In this document: positions 3,295-63,800 of the stretch, piece after piece
Layout: every line of letters begins with the position of its first letter
Numbering within the stretch: position 1 is the stretch's first letter
NCBI RefSeq assembly: GCF_039545795.1
Contig: NZ_CP154260.1
Span: 625,001 to 689,000 of the forward strand
Source of the DNA: Chitinophaga niabensis
GTDB taxonomy: Bacteria; Bacteroidota; Bacteroidia; Chitinophagales; Chitinophagaceae
DNA length: 64,000 nt
Direction of reading: 5' to 3'
Made by a program: the position numbers and the translations under genes
The notes under the pieces: generated by a model
Databases searched by the model: none
What the model was told of the DNA's origin: nothing
Seen by the model: only the letters and a program-made list of their open reading frames with translations

Positions 3295-4437
3295 ATGAAG
3301 ATATTGATATTTACAGCTGTACTGTTATGTCCGGCTGTAATGCTGCTTGCGCAGGAGAGAGGGAGGAAAGAGAAAGTATATTCCTTCCAGGTGGAAGGGA
3401 ATATCGCTAAGCAGGACAAACCCACTAAGATCTATCTCCGTAGAAAAACAGAAGGGAAAATGATCATAGACAGTGTGATCACGCCGGATGGCAGATTCCT
3501 CTTCCTCGGTAATATCCCCGAACCGCAAACCGCTCAATTATTCACACAGGTAACACCCACACCGGAAAATCCCGTTGGCCGCAAAGAAGTGGTCATGTTA
3601 TTCCTGGGGCAGGGCGCTACCACCGTTGATATAAAAGATATTAACAGCCGCGGCACGGCCACCGGCACGCCGGAGCAGGAAGCTTTTAACCAGCTGAACA
3701 GTCTTACCTGGCCCTTCACCAAAGAAGCAGATGAGATATATGGCAAATACATGAAAGCTGCGAGGGCAAAAGATGATGCACTGGTCAGAAAATACGAGTC
3801 CCGCCTCGATGAATTAAATGCCAGCCGCCTGGCCGTAATGAGCAAATACCTGAAAGATAATCCGCATACCCCTATTGGTATGTATGTGATCAACCAGGTG
3901 GCAGGATATGAGCTGAATGCGGATGAATTCTATCCCGTTTTCAATACACTCTCTAAAACAGTACGTAATTATCCTTCCGGTAAACAGTTTGAATACCGCC
4001 TTGAACTGGCAAAGAAACTCACTGTTGGTAATCCGGCCATTGAGTTCAGCCAGAATGATGCAGCCGGTAAACCGGTGAGCCTGAGTTCTTTCAAAGGCAA
4101 ATATGTACTCGTTGATTTCTGGGCCAGCTGGTGTGGTCCCTGCCGTGCAGAGAACCCTAATGTGGTGAAAGCCTACCATAAGTATAAAGAGAAAGGATTC
4201 ACCATCCTCGGTGTTTCTTTTGATGAAAACAAAGAGAAATGGCTGCAGGCGGTGCAGGATGATCAACTGGCCTGGACGCAGGTATCTGACCTCAAAGGTT
4301 GGGGAAATGCAGTAGGCCAGTTATATGGTATCCGCGCTATCCCTCAAAACCTCCTGCTGGACCCCCAGGGGAAGATCATCGCTAAAAATCTCCGCGCTGA
4401 GGCTTTGGAAGCTAAGCTGGAAGAATTGCTGAAATAA
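3295..4437 (+). CDS. Secreted TlpA-like thiol-disulfide oxidoreductase with DUF4369-type N-terminus (copy 2)
   Basis: Paralogue of the preceding gene, 380 residues. The signal peptide ends near LLAQ (residue 20), a DUF4369-like N-terminal domain follows, and the thioredoxin domain has WCGPC at 279-283. The last 130 residues align almost without gaps with copy 1 (shared FWASWCGPCR, YHK.K.K.F..LGVS, AWTQVSDL.GWGNA), while the N-terminal halves have diverged. This fits a tandem duplication in which redox chemistry was kept and partner recognition changed. The gap to copy 1 is 79 bases. Its 3' flank holds the GGCCT minisatellite. Confidence 0.9.
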   Translation: MKILIFTAVLLCPAVMLLAQERGRKEKVYSFQVEGNIAKQDKPTKIYLRRKTEGKMIIDSVITPDGRFLFLGNIPEPQTAQLFTQVTPTPENPVGRKEVVMLFLGQGATTVDIKDINSRGTATGTPEQEAFNQLNSLTWPFTKEADEIYGKYMKAARAKDDALVRKYESRLDELNASRLAVMSKYLKDNPHTPIGMYVINQVAGYELNADEFYPVFNTLSKTVRNYPSGKQFEYRLELAKKLTVGNPAIEFSQNDAAGKPVSLSSFKGKYVLVDFWASWCGPCRAENPNVVKAYHKYKEKGFTILGVSFDENKEKWLQAVQDDQLAWTQVSDLKGWGNAVGQLYGIRAIPQNLLLDPQGKIIAKNLRAEALEAKLEELLK

Positions 4438-4447
4438 GTGGGATTAC

Positions 4448-4560
4448 GGCCTCGTACTGGCCTTTTTACGGCCTTGGATTGGCCTTGAATGGCCTCTAGT
4501 CGGCCTCTAACTGGCCTTTAATCGGCCTTGAGACGGCCTTTATCGGCCTTTAATCAGCCT
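4448..4560 (+). repeat. Degenerate 11-bp minisatellite, 11 copies with core GGCCT
   Basis: Eleven copies of a 10-11 base unit with invariant GCCT and near-invariant GGCCT (last copy AGCCT) start at 4448, 4459, 4470, 4481, 4491, 4502, 4513, 4524, 4535, 4545 and 4556. The spacings are 11,11,11,10,11,11,11,11,10,11. The six bases between cores vary but are pyrimidine/A-rich. The array begins 10 bases after the thioredoxin stop and ends about 42 bases before the promoter of the next operon. The unit is not a multiple of three and contains stops, so it is non-coding. Its role is unknown. Confidence 0.9.
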
Positions 4561-4601
4561 TCCCCCTTTTAACGGAAAAATATCCCCCGCCAAAAATAAA
4601 A

Positions 4602-4646
4602 TTTGGATTAGTTACGAACAGTTCGTAGATTTACGACAGACTCGTA
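4602..4646 (+). promoter_or_regulatory. Bacteroidota promoter overlapped by two BlaI-type operator dyads
   Basis: A -33-like TTTG (4602-4605) is separated by 20 bases from TAGATTTA (4626-4633), one mismatch from the Bacteroidota -7 consensus TAnnTTTG. Two dyads overlie it: perfect TACGAAC-A-GTTCGTA at 4613-4627 and TACGA-N5-TCGTA at 4632-4646. Their centres are 19 bases apart, about two helical turns. The second ends 3 bases before the ATG at 4650. BlaI/MecI/CopY dimers bind such short TACnnnnGTA-type dyads, and a BlaI homologue is the second gene of this operon, so autorepression is the likely reading. This is an inference from sequence only. Confidence 0.72.
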
Positions 4647-4649
4647 CTA

Positions 4650-5822
4650 ATGAAGATCGTATTGGCAACAATGGTGTTTTGCATAGGGTGGTTCAGTCCG
4701 GCAATAGCACAAACTTATAAGATCACCGGACAGGTGCAGGATGAAAAGGGAAAGCCTTTACCGTTTGCCAGCGCCTTTCTGAGCCAGACAACTTTGGGAG
4801 ACAGAACTACAGAAACCGGAGGGTTTACCATCAAGGGGGTACCACCGGGGAAATATGATCTCATCGTGTCTTATCTGGGATATGAGCCATTATTAGTACC
4901 AGTAACAGTAACGAATGACCTCGCAGGTGTGGTGGCCGTATTAAAGCCCAAAGCGGGCATCCTGAAGGAAGTAGTGGTAAGGAGGAATGCGGAGCGGGAC
5001 AGGTTGATGAATATCTTTAAATCAATCTGGGTAGGAAATAGCGGAAACGCAGAACAATGTACCATTCTGAATGATGAAGTGATAGACCTGGTGAACGATG
5101 AGAACAAAGGAATACTCAAAGCCACTTCGGACGATTTCATTGTATTAGAGAACAGGGCATTGGGTTACCGGGTGAAGTTCTTGCTCATGCATTTTGAATA
5201 CCAGCGTTACTCCGGTTATTCATTGTACTACGGCAATCCGCTGTTTGAACTGATGAAACCCCGTAATGCAAGGCAGCAAAGGAACTGGGAGAAGAAACGG
5301 ATAGAAGCGTACAATGGCTCTTCCATGCATTTTTACCGTAGCCTGGTCAATAAAACACTGAAGGAAGATGGGTTTTTAGTACAGAAGATGGTAAGGAAAG
5401 AAAAGAAGAGAGATTTTGTTGCGCCCACAGGCATAGACACAACAAAGGATATAAAGATCAAATCGGACGGCATGTTTTCAAAGTATGTGAATTATCTGTA
5501 CCCCGGCCAGGTACCATACGATAGCCTGATGAGGGACAGCAGCGGAATAAAGTCACTGATCTTTGGGAACTACCTGTTTATCACTTATACAAAGGAAAAG
5601 GAAGAAAGGAAATACATGGAATACAACAATTACCCGGCAAACGCAAAACCAGGCCCGCAGATCTCTTACCTGCGATTACTGGCGCCGGCAGTAAATGTAG
5701 ACGGGAATGGAAATGTGGAATCTCCCACGGACCTGATCGTAGAACAATACTGGGGATGGGAAAAAATGGCGGAAATGTTGCCACTCGATTTTAAAATTAT
5801 CAATACAAACTCAAAAAAATAA
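4650..5822 (+). CDS. Secreted protein with carboxypeptidase-like regulatory (Ig-like) domain, first gene of a BlaI/M56 operon
   Basis: A 390-residue exported protein. The signal peptide ends near AIAQ (residue 21) and a CarboxypepD_reg-like beta sandwich (about 22-105) follows, with ITGQVQDEKGKPLPFASAFL, FTIKGVPPGKYDL and SYLGY. The remaining 280 residues match no family I can name but resemble the conserved tail found after this domain in many Bacteroidota envelope proteins. A short LKEVVVRRNAE stretch at about 105 recalls the region before TonB plugs, but there is no barrel. It sits directly downstream of the operator pair and ends 1 base before the repressor gene, so it is probably the regulated output of the operon. 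Confidence 0.8.
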   Translation: MKIVLATMVFCIGWFSPAIAQTYKITGQVQDEKGKPLPFASAFLSQTTLGDRTTETGGFTIKGVPPGKYDLIVSYLGYEPLLVPVTVTNDLAGVVAVLKPKAGILKEVVVRRNAERDRLMNIFKSIWVGNSGNAEQCTILNDEVIDLVNDENKGILKATSDDFIVLENRALGYRVKFLLMHFEYQRYSGYSLYYGNPLFELMKPRNARQQRNWEKKRIEAYNGSSMHFYRSLVNKTLKEDGFLVQKMVRKEKKRDFVAPTGIDTTKDIKIKSDGMFSKYVNYLYPGQVPYDSLMRDSSGIKSLIFGNYLFITYTKEKEERKYMEYNNYPANAKPGPQISYLRLLAPAVNVDGNGNVESPTDLIVEQYWGWEKMAEMLPLDFKIINTNSKK

Positions 5823-5823
5823 A

Positions 5824-6180
5824 ATGGAAAAACTTACCAAACAAGAAGAAGCTGCGATGCAGGCTATCTGGAAAGTTGGAAAGGGCTTTGTAAAAGATTT
5901 TCTGGAAGCGCACATTGCACCTGTGCCTCCTTATACCACACTGGCTTCTACCATTAAGAACCTCGAGAAAAAAGGATATGTAGATGCCCGTAAAATGGGA
6001 AATGTATATGAGTATACACCAACCATTGAAGAAGGGGAGTATAAGAAGAAATTCATGAACGGATTTGTGAAAGATTATTTTGAAAACTCTTATAAAGAAC
6101 TGGTCACCTTCTTTGCAAAAGATAAGAAGATCAGCCCGGAAGAATTAAAAGAGATCATCAACATGATCGAAAAGAAATAA
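5824..6180 (+). CDS. BlaI/MecI/CopY family transcriptional repressor
   Basis: A 118-residue cytoplasmic repressor of the penicillinase-repressor family (PF03965). The winged helix spans about 1-70, with a recognition helix in YTTLASTIKNLEKKGYV and a wing in ARKMGNVYEYTP; the C-terminal helices (75-118) would dimerise and present the site normally cut by a BlaR1-type protease. Gene order (target, repressor, M56 protease) and the TACGA...TCGTA dyads upstream of 4650 support autoregulation. The family responds to beta-lactams or copper in known cases; here no penicillin-binding domain is present in the partner, so the inducer is unknown. Confidence 0.92.
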   Translation: MEKLTKQEEAAMQAIWKVGKGFVKDFLEAHIAPVPPYTTLASTIKNLEKKGYVDARKMGNVYEYTPTIEEGEYKKKFMNGFVKDYFENSYKELVTFFAKDKKISPEELKEIINMIEKK

Positions 6181-6244: not shown

Positions 6245-8359
6245 ATGTCTGAACTGTTCATATACCTGATCAAAGCTAATATCGCATTGTGCCTGTTCTA
6301 CCTGGCATACAGGCTGGGACTGCGTAGACTAACGTTCTATACGCTCAACCGCTTTTTCCTTTTAACCGGCATTGTATTTTCATCCCTGTTTCCATTGGTG
6401 GATGTAAACGATTTCTTTAACCGCAATGAAAAACTGGCGCAGCAGGTGGTTACTTATGTACCGGATCTTGCAGCATGGAAACCTGCAGAGGCAGAGGTCT
6501 TTACAGTATGGACTTTCCTGGCCTGGGTGTTCTGGGCTGGTGTAGCTGTGATGTTCCTGCGTTTAGTGATACAATTGATATCCCTCTTTTTCCTGCACAG
6601 GAAAACAGGCACCGTTAATATCCAGGAGCGCCCTGTACGGGTGATGAATAAAGCCATGAACCCATTCTCCTTTTTCCGCCATATATACATTAACCCCAGC
6701 CTCCATTCACCGGAGGAATTGCAGGCTATCCTGCAGCATGAATCCATCCACGTAAAAGAGTGGCACTCCGCGGATGTATTGATGGGTGAAGTAAATAATA
6801 TCTTCTATTGGTTTAATCCCGGCGCATGGCTGATGAAAACGGCTATTAAGGAAAACCTTGAATTCCTGACAGACCGTAAAATGCTGCGCACAGGCGTGGA
6901 TAAGAAATCTTATCAATACAGCCTGGTGCAGGTGAATGCTGCTCAGTATGCAGCAGGGATTGCCAACAACTTCAATTTTTCTCACTTAAAAAACCGCATT
7001 AAAATGATGAATAAACAAAAATCATCCCGCCTGCATATCTACAGATATGCGCTATTGGGTTGCCTCACATGCGGAGTCCTTTTATCCCTAAACTTTACGA
7101 AAGCAGGTACCACTGTAATGCATAATGTAGTGAAAGAAGTGAAAGGTGTACTGATCGAAGAGCCGAAGGATACAGTTCCCGTTAAATCAGTGATCATAGA
7201 AAAAATAAAGAAGAAAAACACCAGCTCCGAGCCTGTGATCATCAGATTGGCAGAGAACGGGAAAGATTCTGTAGTGGAACGCACAGTAGTAGAAAGAGAT
7301 GCAAAAGCAGATACCGGAATTGCCAGGAAAATGTTGAAAGTGTACAACACGAAGACGGTAACAGGTTTTGCCATTTCCAGGGATACTACTGTACGCCTGC
7401 GTCTTGGCGGAAGGGACCGGTTCTCAACACCTCCTTTATTTATATTGGATGGCGAACCAATGAAACCTGCACCAGGCGAGAACGCGCTGCAGCATGTTAA
7501 TCCCAATGAGATCGAATCCATTTCTGTATTGAAAGATCAATCTGCTGCTGCCATTTATGGCCCTGCCGGAAATCATGGTGTGATCATTATCACTACCAAG
7601 AAAAAAGCAGCCCAGGTGAAAGAGATGAGGGCAGCATCAAAACCAGATCTGAATGAAGTCGTGGTAGTAGGCTATGGCACAAGGAGTCCGGATCCGGAAG
7701 GAGCACAAACGCTCAAAGGTCTTGTAGTAGTGGCGGATTCCACGCGGGTGAGCAAAGCGGGTGGAGGAAATACGGAAGAAGTAGTAGTTACCGGGTATGC
7801 AACTCCCCGTACCACAACAGGCAAAGTGGAAGAAGTAGTAGTTACCGGGTATGCAAGACCCCGTACCACAACAGGCAAAGTGGAAGAAGTAGTAGTTACC
7901 GGGTATGCAAGTCCCCGTGCCACAACAGGCAAAGTGGAAGAAGTAGTAGTGACAGGGTATGCAACTCCCCGTACCACAAGCAAAGTGGGTGGAGGAAATG
8001 TGGAAGAAGTAGTGGTTACCGGGTATGCAACTCCCCGTACCACAACAGGTAAAGTCAGCGGGCTCACGCTGAGCGCCACAAAGGGTAAAAATTACGAGAA
8101 CGATAATAACGGGGCTTCCGCAACGGTATCCCCTAATCCGGGTACTGGCATATTCAACCTGGCGTATACGCTTGCGAAAGAAGGAAAAGGATATATCGAA
8201 GTGAAGGATATGAGCGGCAGACCTGTTTACAATAAACAGATATCCGGCCCGGGGAGCTTTAATGAGAAAATAGATCTCAGCCGTTTCCCTGCCGGGGTGT
8301 ACATCCTTACGCTTTCCGCATCCGGCGTGAAAATAACTTCAAGGCTCTCTAAAACCTGA
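6245..8359 (+). CDS. BlaR1-like M56 metallopeptidase fused to a partial TonB plug, TonB-box-like repeats and a type IX sorting domain
   Basis: A 704-residue mosaic protein. The N-terminal M56 membrane peptidase (about 1-285) has hydrophobic segments near 5-22, 33-52, 85-118 and 267-285 and the zinc motif HESIH at 165-169. Residues about 395-455 match the second half of a SusC plug (ILDG...IESISVLKDQSAAAIYG...GVIIITTKK). LNEVVVVGYGT follows at 469-479, then five copies of EEVVVTGYATPRTTTGKV starting at 511, 529, 547, 565 and 587. Residues 625-704 resemble a type IX secretion type A sorting domain (NPGTGIFNL, DLSRFPAGVYILTL). No penicillin-binding sensor is seen. It lies 64 bases after the BlaI gene and probably cleaves that repressor on an envelope signal. 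How a membrane-anchored protease uses a sorting domain is unclear. Confidence 0.85.
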   Translation: MSELFIYLIKANIALCLFYLAYRLGLRRLTFYTLNRFFLLTGIVFSSLFPLVDVNDFFNRNEKLAQQVVTYVPDLAAWKPAEAEVFTVWTFLAWVFWAGVAVMFLRLVIQLISLFFLHRKTGTVNIQERPVRVMNKAMNPFSFFRHIYINPSLHSPEELQAILQHESIHVKEWHSADVLMGEVNNIFYWFNPGAWLMKTAIKENLEFLTDRKMLRTGVDKKSYQYSLVQVNAAQYAAGIANNFNFSHLKNRIKMMNKQKSSRLHIYRYALLGCLTCGVLLSLNFTKAGTTVMHNVVKEVKGVLIEEPKDTVPVKSVIIEKIKKKNTSSEPVIIRLAENGKDSVVERTVVERDAKADTGIARKMLKVYNTKTVTGFAISRDTTVRLRLGGRDRFSTPPLFILDGEPMKPAPGENALQHVNPNEIESISVLKDQSAAAIYGPAGNHGVIIITTKKKAAQVKEMRAASKPDLNEVVVVGYGTRSPDPEGAQTLKGLVVVADSTRVSKAGGGNTEEVVVTGYATPRTTTGKVEEVVVTGYARPRTTTGKVEEVVVTGYASPRATTGKVEEVVVTGYATPRTTSKVGGGNVEEVVVTGYATPRTTTGKVSGLTLSATKGKNYENDNNGASATVSPNPGTGIFNLAYTLAKEGKGYIEVKDMSGRPVYNKQISGPGSFNEKIDLSRFPAGVYILTLSASGVKITSRLSKT
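7775..8056 (+). repeat. In-frame 54-bp tandem repeat, five copies
   Basis: This array inside the M56 gene encodes five units of 18 residues; the fourth is 22 residues, with a VGGGNV insertion that also occurs just before the first unit (GGGNTEE). At DNA level units 1-3 differ by a few bases only, including synonymous and non-synonymous changes at the A-T/R/S-P position. That implies recent expansion by slippage or unequal recombination while the reading frame was kept. The open frame seen on the opposite strand across this block is a by-product of the repeat. Confidence 0.95.
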
Positions 8360-60800: not shown

Positions 60801-63800
60801 ATGAAAAACACCTGTATTAAACTGCCCTCCCGGAGGGCGTTTAAAAAGATTCTACTTATGAAACTGACAACGGCATTGTTGCTGCTTACCACATTGCAGG
60901 TGACGGCATATGAAGGAAACTCGCAGAATAAGGTCAGTGTGGATTTTCGTAACACACAACTCACCCGCGCACTGAAGGAAGTGGAACGCAAAACGGATTA
61001 CCGCTTCGTGTTCAGCAACCTTGTATTGAATGAGGGTGTGAAAGTGACGGTGGACGCCAGGAACGTCCCCGTTTTAGACCTGCTCTCACAAATGCTCAAC
61101 GGCACCGGCCTCGTTTTTGATAAACTTGGCGAAAACCTGGTGGTCATCAAAAAAGAAGAAACGCCGCTGGGAGAGATCACCGTAAAAGGAAAGGTCACAG
61201 ACCGCACGGGTTTGCCCCTTCCGGGTGTTAGCATTGTATCCGGCCCCGGAAAAGGCACGATATCAAATGAACAGGGAGAATACTCCATCCGCATAGATGA
61301 AAAAGGCACGCTCACATTCAGCTTTATCGGATACGCCCCACAAGCCATCCCCATAAACGGCCGGACGTCCATTAACGTTACCCTGCTGGAAAGTAAGGAT
61401 ACGGAGCTGAACGAAGTGGTGGTAGTTGGTTATGGTACCATGAACAAACGCGACCTCACGGGCGCCGTTACAAAACTGGGCCAGGAAGATCTGATCGCAG
61501 GCTCCGTATCCCCGCTGATGGCTATCCAGGGAAAAGTACCCGGCCTTACAGTGATCTCCACCAATGGAACCGATCCCAATGCAGGGGTATCATTACAACT
61601 GCGTGGTGTGAATTCCATCAATGCCGCACAGGGTCCCTTGGTGGTAATTGATGGTATCCCCGGTGGTAACATCAACACGGTAGTAAAAGAAGATATTGAA
61701 TCCATCAGCGTATTACGCGATGCATCTGCCGGCGCCATCTATGGTACCAGGGCTTCCGGCGGCGTGATCCTGATCACCACTAAAAAAGCAAAGGCCGGCA
61801 TGCTCCGCGCCACCTTTACCAGCGAATTATTCCTGGAATCTATCCGCAGAAGACCGGAATCCCTTACCGCAGAAGAATTTGTAGCTAATAAAGTGGGTAC
61901 AGACCTGGGGCATAAAACAGACTGGTACAAAGAAGTGACCAACAAATCTCCCTTTAGCCAGCGTTACGTATTGAACGTAAATGGTGGAACGGAAAATGCA
62001 CAGGTATACGCTTCCTTCATGACGCGTAATGCAACGGGCATGGCCATAGAATCCAAAAGAAAGGAATACAGCGGCCGCATCAATACCCATTTCACTTTTT
62101 TCAATGGTGTAGCAGAACTCAGTACCAACGTCAGCTACATCCAGGCCAATGCCACCTTTAGTGATAATGGTATTTTCAACATGGCACTCACCATGAACCC
62201 CACGGAAACACCTTATAACGCAAATGATGTAACCGGTTATAATATTCCTCTTGGTGGCTTTGATTATTTTAACCCCATCGCAGAGGTAAAACTGAGAAAG
62301 GACCTGGGCCAATATAAAAACCTGCTGGCCAGTTCCACACTCCGGCTCAATATCACCAAAGACTTTTATGCTTCAGGTATGATAGCATTAAAGAATGATA
62401 CGGAACATAAGAACTACTACCGCTCAGCACAGCACCGCATTTCCAGGAATGATAATGTTGACGGGAATGCCAGCCAGTCCTATTCCCGCTGGGACGATCG
62501 CACACTGGAACTAACCTTGAATTACAACAAGAATATCGGCCACCATTACATCAATGCCGTAGGTGGTTATACCTACCAGGATTTTAATGGCCAGGGCTTC
62601 AGTGCCAATAACTCCAACTTTCCGGTAGATGGTATTCAGGACAATGATATGGGTACCGGTACCTGGCTGGCAGACGGCCGCGCAGGTATTGGATCCTGGA
62701 AGAGCAATACCGTAAAACTGATCGCGTTCTTCGCGAGAGTGAACTACTCTTTCAGGGATCGTTATATCCTCACTGCTTCACTGCGGCATGAAGGATCTTC
62801 CAAATTCGCACCCGGTAACCAATGGGGTGATTTCCCGGGTATCTCAGCCGCATGGCGTATTTCAGAAGAGACCTTCCTGAAAAACTCCAACCTGGTGAGC
62901 AACCTGAAACTCCGTGGCGGTTATGGCGCTACCGGTAACGAAGGATTCAACGCCAATGTATCTACCCGTGTTTATGGAGCAGACACCTGGTGGCTGGCAG
63001 ATGGAGAATGGATGCGTACATATGGTGTGCTGCACAACCAGAATAAAAACATCCGCTGGGAAGTAAAAAAAGAAGTGAACGTAGGTCTTGATTTCGGTTT
63101 GTTTAACGACAGGCTGAATGGTCGTGTTGACTTTTACCAACGCCGTGTTGATGATATGATCTACGATGTGAGCGTCTCCCAGCCACCCGCTATTCATGAC
63201 AAAACCAGTGTGAATGTTGGTAACATGGATAATAAAGGATATGAAATTGAACTTAACTGGGTAGCCATAAAAAATGCAGACTGGAATTATACCACCGGCA
63301 TCATAGCTTCAGGTAACCGCAGTACATTGACCACATTGAACGGCGGGCAAACTTTTGCAGACCGTAAAAGTTTCCCTGCCCCCGGTAATCCCGGAACTGC
63401 CGTGAGGCTCTATCCCGGAGAAGATATCGGCCGTTTCTTTATCTGGCGTTTTGCCGGATTTACAGATGCCGGTAACTGGATGCTCTATGATAAAACAGGT
63501 AAACCATTTGATGTGAAGGCACAGGCGAAAAAGAATGAAGACAAAGTGTTCATCGGTAATGCCATCCCTAAAGTAATGTTGTCCTGGAATCATAGCCTTA
63601 GCTGGAAGAACTTTGATGCGGGCCTCTATATGCGTAGCTGGATAGGCCACGATGTATTCAATATGATCAACATGTACTACGGCCTTCCGACTGTAAAGGG
63701 GCAGAATGTACTACGTGATGCATTCGATAAGAACAAGAACGTAAAAGGTGAAAAAGAACTGACCGATTACTGGCTGGAAAAAGGCACCTTCCTGAAACTT

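Follow-up and report, generated by a model that had tools for sequence, protein, structure and literature searches.

What does a BlaR1-type membrane protease read when the end of its chain resembles a SusC receptor rather than an antibiotic sensor? The question is raised by the gene at 6245-8359 (+) of the window, a 64,000-nucleotide (nt) stretch of Chitinophaga niabensis (contig NZ_CP154260.1, positions 625,001 to 689,000), whose product follows its last membrane helix with a SusC plug fragment and a series of Ton boxes. Our answer is tentative and held with a little less than even confidence: the protein would act as the antirepressor that reads the signal in a BlaI/M56 system under its own control, with a TonB-docking tail as its sensor, tying a receptor-like gene to the availability or pull of TonB.

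A BlaR1-type protease with a SusC-derived tail

The open reading frame (ORF) encodes an M56 (BlaR1-type) membrane protease of 704 amino acids (aa), continued by a plug fragment, Ton boxes and a sorting domain of the type 9 secretion system (T9SS), in the following order:

6245..8359, + strand: M56 protease with Ton-box tail, operon gene 3, 704 aa (profiles, alignment, model, Foldseek)
6737..6751, + strand: zinc motif HESIH (HExxH), residues 165-169, predicted cytosolic; H165, E166 and H169 invariant in the 46 rows of alignment A2
7031..7096, + strand: last membrane helix, residues 263-284 (helix in model, loop charge, BlaR1 topology)
7424..7603, + strand: SusC plug fragment, residues 394-453 (TIGR04056, TIGR04057, PF07715; Bt1763 the best PDB sequence match; model ordered at about 391-460)
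7649..7681, + strand: first Ton box LNEVVVVGYGT, residues 469-479 (sequence)
7775..8056, + strand: five EEVVVTGYxxPRxTTGKV units, residues 511-604 (tandem-repeat analysis; low model confidence)
8126..8353, + strand: T9SS type-A C-terminal sorting domain, residues 628-703 (PF18962, TIGR04183; model pLDDT, the predicted local distance difference test, 81-96 in blocks of ten)

In Pfam profile searches M56 (PF05569) scored 43.9 bits against a cut-off of 31 and the SusC plug (PF07715) 27.3 against 23.9, and the SusC/RagA signature TIGR04057 reached 54.3 bits (cut-off 46.2). The match to TIGR04056 was partial, covering profile positions 151-205 of 981 at 67.3 bits against 368.25, so that by this full-length test the protease is without an outer-membrane beta-barrel. 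At the C-terminus the type-A sorting domain was recognised by PF18962 (37.2 bits, cut-off 27) as well as TIGR04183 (39.1 bits, cut-off 23). A penicillin-binding or class-D beta-lactamase-like sensor domain was not found with Pfam or NCBIfam profiles, and a BlaR1 for beta-lactams was rejected on that ground; the equivalog NF000326 gave 25.2 bits against a cut-off of 400. Pfam likewise detected neither TonB_C (PF03544) nor a carboxypeptidase-like domain in the ORF. A reading made earlier from the letters alone (the sequence-only reading) had described the M56 motif, the partial plug, LNEVVVVGYGT and five near-identical units, all of which the open frame, the profiles and the tandem repeat bear out; it had missed the sorting domain, the BlaI gene just upstream and the operators.

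Loop charge, together with the BlaR1 topology described in PMC7593790, predicts that the tail after residue 285 is periplasmic. A simple hydropathy scan flagged three other segments as membrane and missed helix 263-284. A structure model built from 46 sequences (mean pLDDT 66.8) ordered the membrane-protease part, a plug-like mini-domain at about 391-460 and the sorting domain, while residues 465-620 were mostly below 50, with short strands at the boxes. With this model Foldseek returned Staphylococcus aureus BlaR1 at ranks 1-4 (8exq, 8exp, 8ext and 8exs; E 1.6e-5 to 3e-4), with low template-modelling (TM) scores (0.22-0.32) that were computed over the whole, partly disordered chain. The next two matches were 8qb1 (mirolase C-terminal domain) and 8glk (a T9SS substrate complex). 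Scanning the 46 A2 orthologues identified M56 in all 46, Plug in 35 and the T9SS sorting domain in 14; a sorting domain on a polytopic inner-membrane protease is thus also present in 13 of the 45 other rows.

The first box, LNEVVVVGYGT, is letter-identical to residues 203-213 of the SusC ORF at 60801, just as the sequence-only reading had stated. The units that follow begin with EEVVVTGYA at residues 511, 529, 547, 565 and 587 and make up a tandem repeat with a period of 54 nt (94% matches, score 370), the fourth being 3 nt shorter and followed by a GGGN spacer. The pattern GARGTNRTNGTNNNNGGNTAY has 34 matches on both strands of the 7.2-Mb genome, six of them inside the protease gene, against none for its backward-read control, so the array of boxes is not due to chance. 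Between the five units the box codons differ synonymously only, and the five codons after the boxes nonsynonymously only, on few events. We considered a frameshift or assembly artefact and ruled it out by the open frame, the synonymous differences between units, and a first search in which each of 24 genomes from the genus had an orthologue.

Bt1763, the levan transporter, has the Ton box 82-DEVVVTG-88, from which the EEVVVTG units differ only by D/E; deletion or alanine substitution of its residues 81-86 caused levan growth defects like those of SusD loss, from which the authors infer loss of function (both PMC7782687). Bt1763 (5t3r_D) was also the best PDB sequence match of the protease, its plug aligning at 37.6 bits, with a weak alignment over the Ton box (VEEVVVTGYATPR on VDEVVVTGYTTQR; 6.1 bits, i-Evalue 25). 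The match is therefore to a Ton box with mutational data and goes beyond mere consensus, and we take the tail boxes to be Ton boxes by their near-identity in sequence to it. A different assignment, as the last strand of a carboxypeptidase-like domain, was discarded because the protease has no such domain and some tails have boxes but no detected plug.

Spread of Ton-box-like motifs among orthologous tails

Searching 79 genomes of the genus with the tail region found it in six, both figures including the genome studied here. On inspection of the five other matches, the near-identical five-unit array was present in this genome only: the nearest relative (G056) has one EEVVVTGY and one EVVVVGYGT, G055 and G042 have three boxes each, G003 has five diverged ones and G021 has one EVTVVGYG with weaker forms. 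We accordingly rejected the array as the conserved feature; it is the single motif that is widespread, recurring across the family, and the array arose from it by recent amplification. The TonB-box-like interpretation of the sequence-only reading holds insofar as the units match the Bt1763 box and the tail is predicted to be periplasmic. The multivalency that it had stressed cannot be the core of the mechanism, given an array restricted to one genome.

A scan of named genomes, of which the best 80 of 279 loci were kept, reached mostly Chitinophaga, then Mucilaginibacter, Pedobacter and others. Most orthologues have none to four boxes per protein, against six here, and diverged multi-box tails were seen in Mucilaginibacter glaciei (L113) and a C. 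niabensis metagenome-assembled genome (L053). The loose motif [VI]x[VI]xG[YFH] occurred 26 times in the tails of 12 array-clade proteins (0.61 expected from shuffles), 13 times in 45 other tails, nearly all from Chitinophagaceae (0.90 expected), and 17 times in 22 tails from Sphingobacteriaceae and Hymenobacter (0.71 expected); in each of these groups none of 1000 shuffles reached the observed count. Rows with broken frames (L061, L097) were left out of the shuffle test, and a further two rows (L090, L094) of the tree and the neighbour comparison; the middle shuffle group includes one row titled Anseongella (L094). When D, E or N was required before the motif, we counted 26 in the 20,724 aa of 76 tails (the window protein not among them), one in the 157,480 aa of 384 mechanically called neighbouring ORFs and none in 76 cores, a density of 1.255 versus 0.006 per 1000 aa, or about 200-fold. 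The sequence-only reading had asked whether such repeats are absent from all related M56 proteins; Ton-box-like motifs recur in the orthologous tails.

The boxes follow the plug in 14 proteins, precede it in 11, are mixed in five and stand without a detected plug in six. This shifting position is the behaviour expected of a short linear motif. The presence of at least two boxes, seen in 11 rows, required at least six changes when mapped on a tree built from 79 M56 cores. A box was present in 14 of the 15 members of the window's clade (support 99/75, below the tool's star) versus 10 of 40 in its sister clade.

The BlaI operon and a putative receptor-like target

The protease gene is the last of three, which are preceded by paired dyads:

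4613..4627, no strand: BlaI-type operator dyad 1, TACGAACAGTTCGTA (TACGA-N5-TCGTA)
4632..4646, no strand: operator dyad 2, TACGACAGACTCGTA, 19 bp from dyad 1 (TACGA-N5-TCGTA)
4650..5822, + strand: operon gene 1, product predicted to be secreted; carboxypeptidase-like domain similar to the N-terminal extension (NTE) of SusC, then LKEVVVRR and another, mostly beta domain (PF13715, 63.8 bits)
5824..6180, + strand: operon gene 2, BlaI/MecI-family repressor (PF03965, 90.7 bits)

Since the dyads at 4613 and 4632 lie directly before gene 4650, we take the unit to be 4650-BlaI-M56. A BlaI match stood upstream of the M56 orthologue in 78 of the 80 loci; the two others are L094, which starts at a contig end, and L090, a short contig whose upstream ORF weakly matches the thioredoxin-like gene. 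Dyads of the form TACGA-N5-TCGTA were found upstream of the operon at 77 of the 80 loci, numbering 146 in the 1.9-kb upstream stretches versus four in the remaining 736 kb, and paired dyads 19 bp apart occurred in 64. We infer that BlaI binds at these conserved dyads. Pfam detected no STN domain in the three operon proteins, and the regulatory partner is BlaI.

Of the 79 genus genomes, 21 contain a match to gene 1 with at least 45% identity and seven a weaker one. Its model (pLDDT 84) has an N-terminal domain that folds like the SusC NTE, with the NTE of SusCdex (9hfj) at Foldseek rank 3 (E 8.7e-7); beyond this domain Foldseek gave no convincing fold match, the top two rows being teneurins with low TM-scores. 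In the intergenic stretch before the dyads (4444-4561) there are about ten irregular [CT]GGCCT repeats, at a density not seen in six relatives checked, G056 included. The thioredoxin-like gene at 3295-4437 was matched in 53 of the 80 loci, mostly upstream of BlaI.

Eight sites of the loose dyad pattern occur in this genome. Two lie before the operon, one 28 bp before a beta-barrel gene and one 25 bp before a thioredoxin-like gene; the other four are either within genes or over 100 bp away from any start. The barrel gene (G000:C1:769909-772734, minus strand, 942 aa) encodes a carboxypeptidase-like domain and an OMP_b-brl_3 barrel, with TonB_dep_Rec_b-barrel barely over its cut-off (27.4 against 27), and a sequence search of the PDB gave no match; it likely encodes a TonB-dependent receptor. 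The tighter pattern TACGAANNNTTCGTA had two or three sites in each of six relatives (control 0), one of which in each stood before the orthologous barrel gene, 27-28 bp away except in G012 (6 bp), where the predicted start may be too early.

Barrel orthologues, defined by at least 44% identity, were present in at least 20 of the 79 genus genomes. Among 30 barrel-type loci examined, a dyad stood just before the gene in 19 of 19 orthologue loci and 0 of 11 paralogue loci. The site began 39-45 bp before the predicted barrel start in 15 of these 19, 20 bp before it in one and, in two, within a start that was predicted too long; in the last, L164, with a broken frame, it ends 28 bp before the N-terminal ATG. 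Gene 4650 is also present in 19 of the 20 listed barrel-orthologue genomes, and G072 and G001 have gene 4650 with no barrel orthologue among the matches listed. When named loci were matched to genus genomes by eye from coordinates, 14 of the 15 window-clade rows fell in barrel-orthologue genomes, the exception being C. skermanii. The placement of the putative sites supports a regulon of the operon and the receptor-like gene. It also fits the proposal of the sequence-only reading that gene control follows receptor traffic, the likely BlaI sites lying before the operon and an outer-membrane receptor-like gene.

We scanned 20 further genomes, some identical to genus genomes, with the tighter dyad and examined 19 regions around the sites. 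Two again hold the barrel orthologue (L200, L201), and in C. skermanii (L199) and M. myungsuensis (L209, where the carboxypeptidase and Plug matches are under cut-off) the site precedes another carboxypeptidase-barrel gene. In three Mucilaginibacter-group loci (L208, L214, L216) it precedes what we take to be a GLPGLI-like gene, and the next gene encodes a carboxypeptidase-like domain protein. L208 matches PF09697; the carboxypeptidase-like domain is under cut-off in L208 and barely over it in L214 and L216, and no barrel match was found in the examined piece of any of the three. This gene order suggests a similar envelope target in another family. The remaining sites are before thioredoxin-like or unknown genes, before BlaI itself in L215, or have no clear target (L204, L205). 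Genes of thioredoxin or AhpC-TSA type shortly follow a dyad in L135, L142, L202, L203 and L198; periplasmic redox proteins may thus belong to the regulon, unless some of the thioredoxin-side sites are chance.

Proposed TonB docking, its rivals and related systems

TonB is anchored in the inner membrane, in the same compartment as the predicted tail, and uses strand addition to attach its C-terminal domain to a target (PMC12204202). In Bacteroides, TonB-dependent transporters far outnumber TonB and ExbB-ExbD proteins (PMC11658791). The recognisable ligands in the tail are the Ton boxes and the sorting domain, and we infer that the tail binds TonB. In the mechanism we propose, the beta-lactam-binding sensor of BlaR1 would have been replaced by a periplasmic tail, a plug fragment and Ton boxes on disordered linkers, which mimics the part of a SusC receptor that faces TonB and which the protease would read in the way BlaR1 reads its own sensor. 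A Ton box of the tail would pair with the TonB C-terminal domain; docking, or the pull of the energised Ton motor, would shift the last membrane helix and free the cytosolic zinc protease, which would cut BlaI and derepress the operon and the receptor-like gene. As tail and receptors would depend on a shared TonB, spare or energised TonB is what the system would report and what it would adjust an outer-membrane receptor to, with extra box units merely raising the chance of docking. Along this putative chain from TonB to the protease, the effect could have the reverse sign.

Several observations weigh against TonB docking. The sorting domain is left unexplained by it and is the basis of a competing reading of the tail. 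By the loose motif, 40 of the 79 rows have no box, and with about half of the orthologues lacking one, the basic BlaI/M56 circuit can do without it. In tails this motif has only about sevenfold the density found in neighbouring ORFs (2.413 versus 0.356 per 1000 aa), the array consists of near-identical DNA and is young and variable in copy number, and Ton-box-like stretches also follow carboxypeptidase-like domains of proteins not known to bind TonB, such as LKEVVVRR in gene 1. On the target side, the barrel protein matches Plug at 18.9 bits, under the cut-off of 23.9. The eight loose dyads in this genome compare with 13 for the backward control, so that this pattern alone means little, and the tighter dyad in the 20 further genomes gave 39 sites versus 25 in the control, so that single sites outside the conserved places, several of which precede other genes, may be chance. 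Box, sorting domain and barrel gene co-occur in one clade (support 99/75), and phylogeny therefore confounds the links among them. Finally, Ton-related modules are shuffled in this genome, which makes partners other than the motor TonB possible.

A stronger version of TonB docking is a force- or occupancy-gated antirepressor, in which TonB itself is the signal, the pull of the Ton motor on a box opens the protease, leftover energised TonB sets transcription of the receptor gene and the six-box form is a high-gain variant; we consider it rather doubtful.

The boxes could instead be strand ligands for another partner, either TonB_C domains on other regulators or operon gene 1, so that the tail builds a signalling complex with no reading of the Ton motor. 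The same genome encodes an M56 protein in which TonB_C (PF03544, 125.4 bits) occurs twice, and a single chain carrying Plug, CarbopepD_reg_2 and TonB_C, relatives of which have KLEEVVVTGYGRSRKK or LNDVVVVGYG just before the TonB_C region. These candidate partner genes, however, lie at about 4.49 and 6.42 Mb, away from the operon at 0.63 Mb, and we rate the explanation as unlikely. The M56 paralogue (L042/L045; G000:C1 ~4493797-4495473) has a tail ending in its two TonB_C domains, and would thus supply the other half of a Ton contact. Further candidate TonB_C proteins of this genome, any of which may or may not be a motor TonB, are at L043, L044, L046 and L047. In L050/L176 (G000:C1:6418277-6419911) and relatives such as L177-L181, a carboxypeptidase domain, a Ton-box-like motif (LNETVVVGY, KLEEVVVTGY) and TonB_C share one chain; L050 additionally has the plug signature, and by eye this group has one membrane helix. 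It is possible that in such proteins the Ton box pairs with TonB_C within the chain.

We give a similarly low standing to neutral repeat growth in a disordered linker, starting from one Ton-box-like stretch that arrived with the SusC plug fragment and leaving copy number without meaning. It would account for the near-identical 54-nt tandem copies and the single such unit in the nearest relative, as well as for linker residues that vary freely and a model confidence that is low throughout the region. It sits poorly with a motif that is far above shuffles in orthologous tails and shifts in position relative to the plug, and with boxes that vary synonymously only, on few events.

The least probable alternative has the tail read by the T9SS, with the sorting domain engaging the translocon, the protein staying anchored in the inner membrane, the boxes and linker acting mainly as spacer, and the protease reporting secretion traffic or having its tail shed: the domain is over cut-off, confidently modelled, similar to a T9SS substrate complex and present in 14 of the 46 A2 orthologues, yet the other 32 have no T9SS match while nearly all named loci keep BlaI and dyads, the retention of Ton boxes goes unexplained, a four-helix membrane protein is an unusual substrate, and an N-terminus that is itself the first of the four predicted helices argues against ordinary T9SS cargo.

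Under TonB docking the circuit is a concrete, genetically testable candidate sensor of TonB supply. If this is correct, the Ton box is a short motif that can be transferred to regulators of the inner membrane, and the signals read by BlaR1-type proteases are not confined to antibiotics. Our literature search, mostly limited to non-subscription papers, found no description of an M56 or BlaR1 protein with TonB, plug or Ton-box features, in line with the sequence-only reading, whose author knew of no BlaR1 homologue with such an array.

Among known systems the closest are BlaR1/MecR1 with BlaI/MecI of S. aureus and B. licheniformis, which share the M56 zinc protease in a polytopic membrane protein, the adjacent BlaI-family repressor, the dyads and a predicted extracytoplasmic C-terminal sensor. 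Here the penicillin-binding or beta-lactamase-like sensor is absent, a SusC-derived tail with Ton boxes and a T9SS domain stands in its place, and the predicted targets are envelope genes. With SusC/RagA receptors such as Bt1763 the protease has in common the plug signature and the Ton box; in contrast to them it has no barrel, no N-terminal extension and an inner-membrane anchor, and its boxes are repeated and follow the plug. Like cell-surface signalling by an STN receptor, anti-sigma factor and extracytoplasmic function (ECF) sigma factor (PMC7593790), it would use regulated proteolysis to couple transcription to an outer-membrane receptor system on the far side of the periplasm, but with a BlaI-type repressor and an M56 protease in place of the sigma/anti-sigma pair and with no STN domain in the operon proteins. 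The paralogue L042 of the same genome is of the same protease type with a Ton-related tail, but what it contributes to the contact is the TonB half, not the Ton box. The system thus varies the BlaR1/BlaI scheme by its Ton-box tail and by a predicted target that resembles an outer-membrane receptor.

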